Assembly (NCBI GenBank): GCA_024277895.1
Contig: JAJRUH010000177.1
Coordinates: forward strand, 1-36,274
Direction: 5' to 3'
DNA: 36,274 nt
DNA from: Bacteroidota bacterium
Lineage (GTDB): Bacteria > Bacteroidota > Bacteroidia > Bacteroidales > JAADGE01
The notes beneath the pieces are model-generated. The model worked only from the letters and a program-made list of their open reading frames with translations. It searched no databases and had not been told where the DNA came from. This document shows, piece by piece, positions 10,608 to 16,600 of this stretch. Within the stretch, counting starts at the first letter, position 1, and every line of letters begins with the position of its first letter. The position numbers were made by a program, and so were the translations under genes.

Positions 10608-11162
10608 ATGGCAAAATCGTATTGGAATGAAAAATGGATAAAAATTAAATTTGACTCTAATATATCTGAAAATGAGAAATTTATGGTCTCAGATTACGGG
10701 AGAATAAAAAGTTTTAAAAAAGATAAGAAAAACGGATTGTTTTTTAAACCTCAAATTTTTAACGGTTATTACCGTATAGCTCTTATTCAAAAAAACGGAA
10801 AAAGGACTGCTCGATATGTCCATAAATTAGTTGCGGAAGCATTTATTCCTAAAGATAATGAAAAACAAATTTATGTTATCCATAAAGATTATGATAAATT
10901 AAATAATCGTGTATATAATCTTGCATGGGCGAATAAAGAAGAAAAAGAAAAACACCAATTCAGTAATCCTAAATACACAGTAAAACGCAGGATTACTTAT
11001 TCAAAACTTGATGAAGTTACCGTAAGACTTATAAAAAAGAAAATTTCAGATAAAAACAGAAAAACTCGTATGAAGATGATTGCCAAACGCTTCGGTATTT
11101 CTGAAATGCAATTGTACAGAATAAAAAGAGGAGAGAATTGGGGACATGTTAAAATTGATTAA
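10608..11162 (+). CDS. free-standing NUMOD4/HNH endonuclease with C-terminal HTH
   Basis: A putative site-specific DNA endonuclease related to phage homing nucleases. Domain order: a NUMOD4 DNA-binding motif at residues 5-60 (WIKIKF...MVSDYGRIKSF...GYYRIAL), an HNH_3-type core at 70-108 (YVHKLVAEAFI with His72, VIHKDYDKLNNRVYNLAW with His92 and Asn104), and a C-terminal helix-turn-helix at about 135-178 (MKMIAKRFGISEMQLYRIKRG). The usual Asn before the second His (NH) is Ile here (VIH), which may or may not affect activity. It sits 30 bases after argS and ends four bases from birA, which is convergent. No intron or intein is seen in its neighbours, so it is solitary. Confidence 0.85.
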   Translation: MAKSYWNEKWIKIKFDSNISENEKFMVSDYGRIKSFKKDKKNGLFFKPQIFNGYYRIALIQKNGKRTARYVHKLVAEAFIPKDNEKQIYVIHKDYDKLNNRVYNLAWANKEEKEKHQFSNPKYTVKRRITYSKLDEVTVRLIKKKISDKNRKTRMKMIAKRFGISEMQLYRIKRGENWGHVKID

Positions 11163-12480: not shown

Positions 12481-13146
12481 ATGCAGAATACAAATAAATT
12501 GCATTACAATAAAAAGGAGTTTTATCGCAGGAAACTACCTCATTATCAAAATTTAGGTGCATTATTTTTTATAACTTTTAATGTTAAATCTGCTTTGAAA
12601 ACATCTGAAATAGAAAAATTGCAATTTAAACTTGAACAAAGAATCACAAGTTTACCGATTAAACAACAAAGTTTGTATTCAAAAAAACTTGATGAAGAAT
12701 ACAGACGTTATTTCGGTGAATATGATAAAGCATTGCATACGGGAAATAATCATTGGCTGAAGAATGAACAATGTGCTGAAATTGTATCAAATTCATTGCA
12801 TTATTGGAATAATAAACGCATTGAACTTTATTCATATTGCATTATGTCAAATCATGTTCATGCAGTTTTAAGAGTATTTGAAAAAGATGAAAAAGGGAAT
12901 AATATATATCTGCAGGATATTATGGAGTCTGTTAAAAAATATTCTGCGAATAAATGTAATAAAATATTAAACAGAGAAGGACAATTTTGGCAAAATGAAA
13001 CTTATGATCGTATTGTCAGAAACAGAGGAGAATTATACAGAATTATAAGTTATATATTAGATAATCCTGTTAAGGCAGGTTTGTGTGAAGAAAGAAAAGA
13101 TTGGAAATTTTCGTATATAAAAGATGATTATAATGAGTTTATGTAA
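12481..13146 (+). CDS. REP-associated tyrosine transposase (RAYT, Y1_Tnp)
   Basis: A single-strand-specific HUH nuclease related to IS200/IS605 TnpA. The HUH pair is SNHVHAVL (His125 and His127). The catalytic tyrosine is probably Tyr154 in ESVKKYSANKCNK. GQFWQNETYDRIVRN (168-182) and YILDNPVKAGL (191-201) are typical of RAYTs rather than IS200 transposases. The length, 221 residues, is normal and the frame is intact, so the protein is probably active. It is flanked by 24-26 base hairpin repeats in inverted orientation. RAYTs are usually single-copy and are thought to spread the repeats rather than themselves; related hairpins elsewhere in the genome would confirm this. Confidence 0.93.
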   Translation: MQNTNKLHYNKKEFYRRKLPHYQNLGALFFITFNVKSALKTSEIEKLQFKLEQRITSLPIKQQSLYSKKLDEEYRRYFGEYDKALHTGNNHWLKNEQCAEIVSNSLHYWNNKRIELYSYCIMSNHVHAVLRVFEKDEKGNNIYLQDIMESVKKYSANKCNKILNREGQFWQNETYDRIVRNRGELYRIISYILDNPVKAGLCEERKDWKFSYIKDDYNEFM

Positions 13147-15057: not shown

Positions 15058-15468
15058 ATGAAACAAATTAAATTATTATCCGTTCTTGTAATTTTTTTAA
15101 CTTTAACGGTTTCTTGTAATAAAACCCCGCATGACAAATTAATAGGAAAATGGGATGTTACTAAAATTGTCAACTCTACAATGACGGAACAAGATGATAT
15201 CGACTTCTTTAATGAAATGAATAAGGATGTATTAGACAAAGAAGTTTTTACTTTTACGAATGATAAAGTAACAAAAAGTTTTCCTGAAAAAAGTGAAGGA
15301 ACTTGGGAAATTGATGAAAAAGGTAAGGTTCTTACCATTGATTGGGGTGAAAATGATAATTATTCTCCGCATACCTTTGTTGTTGAAAAATTAACTTCAG
15401 ACAGTCTTATCATTGAAGAAGATTTTGAAGAATTCTTAATTACAACATATTTCTCAAAAATAAAATAA
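15058..15468 (+). CDS. lipocalin-like lipoprotein
   Basis: A 136-residue lipoprotein. The signal peptide MKQIKLLSVLVIFLTLTVSC has its lipobox cysteine at residue 20. The mature part begins DKLIGKWDVTKIV, the GxW-type first strand of small lipocalin-like domains. A later EGTWEIDEKGKVLTIDW hairpin and a final LITTYFSKIK strand match the family's eight-strand barrel. Such domains bind small hydrophobic ligands or have lost ligand binding; the ligand here is unknown. The next gene on the same strand carries a related lipocalin-like domain at its C-terminus (GSWKMTGYED... GYWEYDVAKKKIYLIP), suggesting a shared history or partnership. The two genes are separated by 154 bases. Confidence 0.75.
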   Translation: MKQIKLLSVLVIFLTLTVSCNKTPHDKLIGKWDVTKIVNSTMTEQDDIDFFNEMNKDVLDKEVFTFTNDKVTKSFPEKSEGTWEIDEKGKVLTIDWGENDNYSPHTFVVEKLTSDSLIIEEDFEEFLITTYFSKIK

Positions 15469-15622
15469 TTTTTGTATAAAGCATTCATACTTAAATTTTA
15501 AATACACAGAAATGATTGCGGTATCATTTGAACTTTCGATAATATCGTAAGTCTGTATGTCGGTGTTTTCTGCCTGACCGCAGACAGATTGTGTGATTTT
15601 TGCAAAATATTAAAACATATTT

Positions 15623-16600
15623 ATGAAAGATATTTTTGTCAGTTTTTCGAAAGAAGATAAAAACTTATCAAGAAAGTTGGTATCTAAATTGGAAGCTGAG
15701 GGATATTCGTGTAATGTATTGCCGCGAGACAGTTCGCACGGAAAGCCGGAAGATTTGATTGCCGAAAGCAGGATATTTATTTTAATACTGTCTTCCGGAG
15801 CTGAAAAATCGCAGCAAGTTTCCGAACAATTAAAAAATGCCGTTGAAAACCACAGTTTTATCATTCCTTTTAAAGCCGGAAAAATTGATAATAATTTGGG
15901 CATACAGTATATGCTGAACGAATTGGAATGGGTGGATGCATTCGGCGACGGGTTTGACGAAGCTTATGATATTTTATTAGAAATTATTGAAGAAATAACC
16001 GAAGGGAAGAAAACAAAAAGTATTAATAAAGCAAAACAACTTTCGGAAACCGGAGGTTTTGAATTAAAGAAACCGCATTTGTACGGAATAATCGGTGTGT
16101 TGGCAGTTTCACTATTGTATTTTGCATTTTTCAATAATTCCGGAACAAAAAATACTACTTTACCTGCAAATAATATATCTCAATCTGCCGATAAAGTAAT
16201 TCCTGATATTGTAAATGAGAAACTAAAACCCGAAGAGCAAAAGATAGTAGGTTCGTGGAAAATGACCGGCTACGAAGACAGCAGACAAATGACACCTGAA
16301 GAGCGCCGAGTAACCAATCAAAATATTGAGCAAATGAAACAAAGGGTTTTATTGACTTTTAACGCCGACAGAAGTTTTGCTCGTGCCGGCTTTACGCAAT
16401 ATGTTCAAAAAGGATACTGGGAGTACGATGTTGCTAAAAAAAAGATTTATTTAATTCCTGAAAACACCAATAAAAAAGAAGAAATTAATATTATTGATTT
16501 AACGAATAAAAAAATGACTTTTGTCGTTACCGAATCGGTAGAAATAAGCCCGGGTAAAACGGAAATAGTAACTACAAAATTGAGTTTTGAGAAACAATAA
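15623..16600 (+). CDS. TIR domain - transmembrane - lipocalin-like fusion protein
   Basis: Three parts are visible. Residues 1-125 are a bacterial TIR domain: IFVSFSKEDKNLSRKL for the BB-proximal first strand and helix, LPRDSSHG, RIFILILSSGAEKSQQVSEQL with Glu68 at the place of the catalytic NADase glutamate, and LEWVDAFGDGFDEAY. The stretch after PRD is shorter than in typical homologues. Residues 154-170 (YGIIGVLAVSLLYFAFF) form one membrane helix. Residues 208-325 are a lipocalin-like beta domain starting GSWKMTGYED. This predicts a cytoplasmic TIR and an extracytoplasmic ligand-binding domain, reminiscent of a receptor. Signalling or NAD hydrolysis is inference. A terminator follows at 16606. 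Confidence 0.85.
   Translation: MKDIFVSFSKEDKNLSRKLVSKLEAEGYSCNVLPRDSSHGKPEDLIAESRIFILILSSGAEKSQQVSEQLKNAVENHSFIIPFKAGKIDNNLGIQYMLNELEWVDAFGDGFDEAYDILLEIIEEITEGKKTKSINKAKQLSETGGFELKKPHLYGIIGVLAVSLLYFAFFNNSGTKNTTLPANNISQSADKVIPDIVNEKLKPEEQKIVGSWKMTGYEDSRQMTPEERRVTNQNIEQMKQRVLLTFNADRSFARAGFTQYVQKGYWEYDVAKKKIYLIPENTNKKEEINIIDLTNKKMTFVVTESVEISPGKTEIVTTKLSFEKQ

Follow-up and report, generated by a model that had tools for sequence, protein, structure and literature searches.

The window analysed here, that is, the whole stretch of 36,274 nucleotides, belongs to an assembly of 3.19 Mb from a member of the Bacteroidales and carries, on its forward strand, the two genes that had been proposed at 15058-16600; both open reading frames (ORFs) were confirmed. 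The first (15058..15468, +) codes for a lipocalin-like lipoprotein of 136 amino acids, recognised from its ORF, its similarity to the Lipocalin_4 profile and its structural model. The second (15623..16600, +) starts after a gap of 154 bases and codes for a fusion protein of 325 amino acids, recognised from its ORF, Pfam matches and model, in which a TIR domain (residues 1-125; 15623..15997, +; Pfam, model and fold matches) is followed by a single membrane helix (residues 152-170; 16076..16132, +; hydrophobicity and model) and by a lipocalin-like domain that is predicted to be extracytoplasmic (residues 206-325; 16238..16597, +; Pfam, model and profile-profile comparison). The neighbours of the pair in the window include argS, a birA-like ligase gene, an HMG-CoA-lyase-like gene and a methyltransferase gene, identified by Pfam/NCBIfam or, for argS and birA, by eye. 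A free-standing ORF resembling NUMOD4/HNH homing endonucleases lies at 10608-11162, directly after the argS-like ORF (itself assigned by eye), and the ORF at 12481-13146 resembles, by eye, a REP-type (Y1) transposase, for which PADLOC gives only weak Cas2 cross-matches.

The TIR half of the fusion matches Pfam TIR_2 (PF13676) at 1.7e-12 over residues 4-119, with 48.3 bits against a gathering cut-off of 28. The match of residues 208-300 to Lipocalin_4 (PF13648) is closer to the limit, as it reaches 21.4 bits in hmmscan, slightly below the cut-off of 22.4, and 25.2 bits, above it, when the protein is scanned with its own genome. The description of the second gene as a TIR joined through one membrane helix to a lipocalin-like outer domain holds. 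The AlphaFold2 model of the fusion has a mean pLDDT of 80 and a pTM of 0.42; in blocks of ten residues, the TIR scores 76-95 and the barrel, from residue 201, 82-94, while the linker is disordered. Structure prediction had been suggested as a check on whether the TIR is degenerate. In the model its fold is intact, with matches to the SPARTA TIR-APAZ protein (Z 17.4, rmsd 2.8 over 133 residues), SARM1 (Z 16.2, 2.5 over 121), MyD88 (Z 15.1, 2.6 over 123) and AbTir (Z 14.3, 2.1 over 121), and the outer domain is modelled as a lipocalin-like barrel. Additionally, a PDB sequence search with the fusion returned the flagellin hook IN motif family protein 6xi1 (5.2e-6), and the profile of the fusion barrel returned the same entry at 1.3e-8 summed over repeats, in both cases without any single stretch that passes.

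None of the 33 distinct fusion proteins collected has a second membrane-helix candidate; in L005, masked bases interrupt the protein after the TIR, and its barrel was found as a separate match. In 25 of the 33, lysine and arginine are enriched on the N-terminal side of the helix. Given the single helix and this charge bias, the TIR is predicted to be cytoplasmic and the barrel extracytoplasmic.

The lipobox cysteine of the first gene (Cys20 of LTVSC, encoded at 15115..15117, +) is apparent in the sequence and, in the alignment of 25 relatives, near-invariant (at least 90%). The lipoprotein reaches 22.0 bits against Lipocalin_4 by hmmscan, again slightly below the cut-off of 22.4, and it is not among the proteins listed in the Lipocalin_4 scan of its own genome; at E 0.1 or better, the profile is matched by 22 of 25 lipoproteins and 12 of 19 fusions. 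Its AlphaFold2 model (pLDDT 87) is most similar in the PDB to the lipocalin-like protein 4qrl of Bacteroides (Z 12.6, rmsd 2.0 over 92 residues), and also matches many lipocalins with Z values of 8 to 11. VtrC, with Z 8.3, is one of a large number of lipocalin folds that score about equally, near Z 8, and fatty-acid-binding-like folds are matched as well, with weak sequence matches (the best FABP at E 0.0035). When the two barrels of the pair are compared with hhalign, the probability is 98.8% and the E-value 5e-17 over 113 columns, and the models of both show eight strands with a helix inserted between strands 1 and 2. The barrels of the lipoprotein and the fusion are homologous, in agreement with the proposal that the preceding gene encodes a lipoprotein with a domain of the same kind.

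The situation is different for the catalytic site, as the original prediction had taken Glu68 as the NADase glutamate. When the 33 fusion TIRs are aligned with 29 further TIRs from the same order, in a register anchored by the glutamate of the control L132, which aligns with that of AbTir, the glutamate of the controls corresponds to residue 69 of the fusion, one residue past Glu68, and this residue is a glutamine (codon CAA, 15827..15829, +; sequence and alignments). In AbTir, the catalytic glutamate is E208, tied to a WxxxE motif (PMC11374754); the equivalent glutamate of helix C is absent from the window's TIR, where Gln69 stands in its place. The controls were the 30 best PF13676 matches, one per genome, and so lean towards canonical TIRs; L127 was left out before counting because its slice reaches a stop ahead of the domain, and the remaining 29 all have glutamate. 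In the fusions, the column contains glutamine in 18, glutamate in four, leucine in three, isoleucine in two, and D, N, T, S, A and V in one each. Gln69 is found in all 12 fusions of the window's genus, encoded by both CAA and CAG, while residue 68 is glutamate in eight of them; the other four have S, R or N there. The possibility that Glu68 acts as the catalytic residue through a shift of one position was also considered and rejected, as four of the 12 have no acid at position 68 and nevertheless have Gln69.

MyD88 also has glutamine at this column in the HMMER alignment. According to the survey PMC7075850, the catalytic glutamate is conserved in more than 70% of TIRs and is rare (less than 10%) in MyD88, TIRAP and the endosomal TLRs, although its frequency does not strictly track TIR activity. 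For this reason, its loss speaks strongly, though not decisively, against NADase activity. The tree requires at least three changes between glutamate and other residues, so the catalytic glutamate was probably lost more than once. With the residue lost, the TIR looks more like part of a sensor or scaffold than of an antiviral enzyme.

The degree of conservation along the TIR, compared within this genus alone, points in a similar direction. Strands C and E (0.94 and 0.93) and helices A and E (0.83 and 0.82) are its best-conserved parts, and strand B (0.62), the BB loop with helix B (0.62) and the catalytic helix (0.66) its least conserved, which suggests that the domain is kept for contacts and not for catalysis. 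A further use of the site can be imagined, in which the pocket, altered from Glu to Gln, would bind NAD, or a related molecule, but not cleave it, and would so link the state of the envelope to the redox state of the cell. We regard such a nucleotide sensor as improbable: glutamine resembles glutamate in shape and is fixed across the genus, but the BB loop and helix B beside the pocket are short there and among the least conserved parts, and outside the genus the column has L, I, A, V, D, N, S or T.

The idea of an NADase was coupled to one of phage defence, in which the barrel would detect a signal from the envelope or from a phage, and the TIR would deplete or cyclise NAD. The fold of the TIR is indeed near those of SPARTA, SARM1 and AbTir, the PADLOC model Aga_TIR-PNTD1-PNTD2 matches the fusion at 1.3e-5 (over the TIR part only), and the four glutamates retained among the 33 relatives are also in its favour. 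The surroundings of the gene, by contrast, do not support this idea. PADLOC was run on 15 window proteins, the pair and its 13 neighbours, and no defence system was recognised among the latter: homing-endonuclease models match one ORF at 1e-14, mad2 matches the neighbouring methyltransferase at 1.3e-6 over only 62 residues, and the remaining matches, to Cas2 (5e-4), mad1 (0.0016) and ZorA (0.0038), are weak. Beside the fusion gene, neither Argonaute, SAVED, STING nor any other defence partner was recognised.

The distribution of the fusion also differs from the patchy one of a defence gene, as it is present in 12 of the 14 genomes of the window's genus and in 18 of the 21 of its family. In the two genus members that appear to lack it (G002 and G006), the lipoprotein gene lies less than 100 bases from a contig end, so the presence of the fusion there cannot be judged. 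The sole true miss in the family, G016, has a protein with two lipocalin-like domains and neither TIR nor membrane helix (L026, 1393-2220). In an order-wide sample, the fusion was found in 19 of 393 genomes, spread over eight families, its architecture being read from ORFs in these 19 and the other 47 matching genomes being judged by match ranges. In a phylum-wide sample of 395 genomes (with an unspecified share of the window's order), the window was the only whole-fusion match; in both samples, at most five candidates per genome were scored, and misses are possible.

The 33 distinct fusions belong to families f1 (18), f56 (4), f63 (3), f67 (3), f45 (2), f17 (1), f37 (1) and f71 (1). Leaving aside the f71 locus, whose contig ends too early, 32 loci have enough flank, and in 26 of them a lipoprotein gene lies directly upstream on the same strand. 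These 26 come from five families (17/18 in f1, 4/4 in f56, 3/3 in f63, 1/1 in f17 and 1/1 in f37); the six without an adjoining lipoprotein are those of f45 (0/2 paired) and f67 (0/3), plus G015, where the lipoprotein is on another contig. Conservation of the pair in other genomes, another check that had been proposed, hence extends well beyond the genome of the window. The two genes are 2 to 266 bases apart, and 20 or fewer in 14 of the 26 loci, taking ORFs from their first start. Upstream of the pair, 11 of the 18 f1 loci have a divergent methyltransferase gene, as would be expected if the pair had descended in place.

The fusions group together on the tree (support 99/81), beside three TIRs that bear the glutamate. 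No match was found in 50,697 phage records or 72,556 plasmid records; with this and the single tree group, a mobile or phage origin is not supported. The pair is vertically inherited. Taken with Gln69, which all 12 genus members with a fusion share and which makes NAD depletion doubtful, these results leave the enzyme and defence reading of the original prediction unsupported, and we think it very unlikely that the fusion is an anti-phage NADase. What survives of the membrane receptor that had been imagined is a predicted receptor-like topology, together with the intact TIR fold, the lipocalin-like fold and the conserved pair.

Some variation was observed outside the window's genus. The fusions of f45 and f67 (L106, L107, L108 and L109) adjoin, without a lipoprotein, a protein of about 440-465 amino acids, of TPR type in L106, the one copy scanned. 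In f56 and f37, the region downstream of the fusion encodes another lipocalin-like lipoprotein, which contains a long helical insert (L105, 7943-8533; L103, 8222-8872). The TIR half is strongly diverged in f56 (L068, L070, L077 and L079), with helix and barrel retained, and Pfam no longer detects it in either of the members scanned, L068 and L070. Separately, open frames of 1738-2107 amino acids with three to five tandem TIR_2 matches in one frame were found in G056:C165, G090:C222, G055:C197 and G036:C625.

Selection was compared between the parts of the two proteins, with the caution that some dS values are close to saturation. Over seven pairs, dN/dS is 0.08-0.20 for the TIR, 0.03-0.14 for the fusion barrel and 0.15-0.36 for helix and linker; in the four close species pairs, the barrel has the same range, the TIR has 0.08-0.13, helix and linker have 0.15-0.34, and the lipoprotein has 0.05-0.34. 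The TIR is therefore maintained and not decaying in this genus, and a decaying pseudogene can be rejected there, as dN/dS is well below 1. The barrel is under at least as much constraint as the TIR, and under more in most of the seven pairs. Because the barrel is the better-conserved half in most pairs and the TIR is eroded in f56, the main rival of the explanation that we favour is a non-signalling one, in which the proteins handle lipids or lipoproteins of the envelope, the barrels bind or pass lipids, and the TIR is only a cytoplasmic anchor or a regulatory remnant. The lipocalin and fatty-acid-binding-like folds (the latter with the weak sequence matches mentioned above), the third lipoprotein of f37 and f56, and the two-barrel protein L026 are all consistent with lipid handling. 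As the TIR is clearly under purifying selection in the genus and is found in eight families, we consider this possibility doubtful, although it deserves more weight than the enzyme or the nucleotide sensor. Nonetheless, because Pfam does not detect the TIR half in the two f56 members scanned, the TIR may be less important than the barrel.

Among the closest known systems are VtrA/VtrC and ToxR/ToxS, described in PMC9214523 as a protein with one membrane helix and a neighbouring lipocalin-like periplasmic partner. As in these, there is a cytoplasmic N-terminal domain, one helix, a periplasmic domain and, next door, a gene for a periplasmic protein of lipocalin-like type; a single-helix protein adjoined by the gene of such a partner, as in co-component systems, is found at 26 of 32 loci, with the locations predicted from helix, charge and lipobox. 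There are, however, several differences, as the partner here is a lipoprotein whose gene comes first, each gene contains a whole barrel, and the likeness seen is one of architecture. In addition, the output domain of VtrA/VtrC and ToxR/ToxS is a winged-helix DNA-binding domain and here it is a TIR, so the pair is not classed as a member of the co-component systems. Toll/IL-1 receptors likewise have one membrane helix with a TIR on its inner side, but the domain order is reversed here and a barrel replaces the LRR or Ig domains. With the non-catalytic TIR of MyD88, the fusion shares the lack of the glutamate and the glutamine in its place. The TIR NADases SARM1, AbTir and SPARTA TIR-APAZ are similar in fold (Z 14 to 17) and differ in that the glutamate is replaced here and no defence partner is recognised alongside. 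Bacteroides lipocalin-like proteins (4qrl; Lipocalin_4) resemble the lipoprotein in fold (Z 12.6) and both barrels in profile, whereas here one barrel is joined to a membrane helix and a TIR. No description of the TIR-TM-lipocalin architecture was found in the titles and abstract starts listed for TIRs with lipocalins, bacterial TIRs, TIR NADases, periplasmic sensors and Bacteroides lipocalin-like lipoproteins; PMC10907252, in the part available, covers other TIR proteins.

With moderate confidence, giving it about an even chance of being correct, we propose that the two genes form an envelope module of a lineage within the Bacteroidales, a receptor of co-component type with a non-catalytic TIR scaffold. 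The fusion would span the inner membrane, the N-terminal TIR facing the cytoplasm and the small barrel the periplasm, and the upstream gene would supply a lipoprotein that is anchored to a membrane and has a barrel related to that of the fusion. The two barrels would associate, and a hydrophobic ligand or a state of the envelope could alter their arrangement. This change would be relayed through the single helix to the TIR, which, having lost the NADase glutamate, may serve, like the TIR of MyD88, as an assembly scaffold for a putative downstream partner. The proposal is built on what was observed: the domains, the topology signals, the homology of the barrels, the pairing, the vertical inheritance, the purifying selection and the loss of the catalytic residue. 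Against it stand the four relatives of 33 that retain glutamate in the catalytic column and the six testable loci of 32 without an adjoining lipoprotein, as well as the diverged TIR of f56 and the tie of VtrC with many other lipocalin folds. Additionally, no cytoplasmic partner of the TIR was found, as the genome scan gave neither a second TIR_2 match nor any match to TIR (PF01582). A bolder version, in which the module is a bacterial counterpart of Toll-type receptors, with an inherited lipocalin-like sensor, a lipoprotein co-receptor and a non-catalytic TIR scaffold that serve physiology and not defence, is rather unlikely.

In any case, the architecture is real and conserved, and undescribed within the literature searched. 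Most discussion of bacterial TIRs treats them as defence enzymes that consume NAD or as effectors directed at hosts. This membrane-spanning family, core to its lineage and mostly without the catalytic glutamate, would be a test case for whether bacterial TIRs can work as non-enzymatic scaffolds, as they do in animals.
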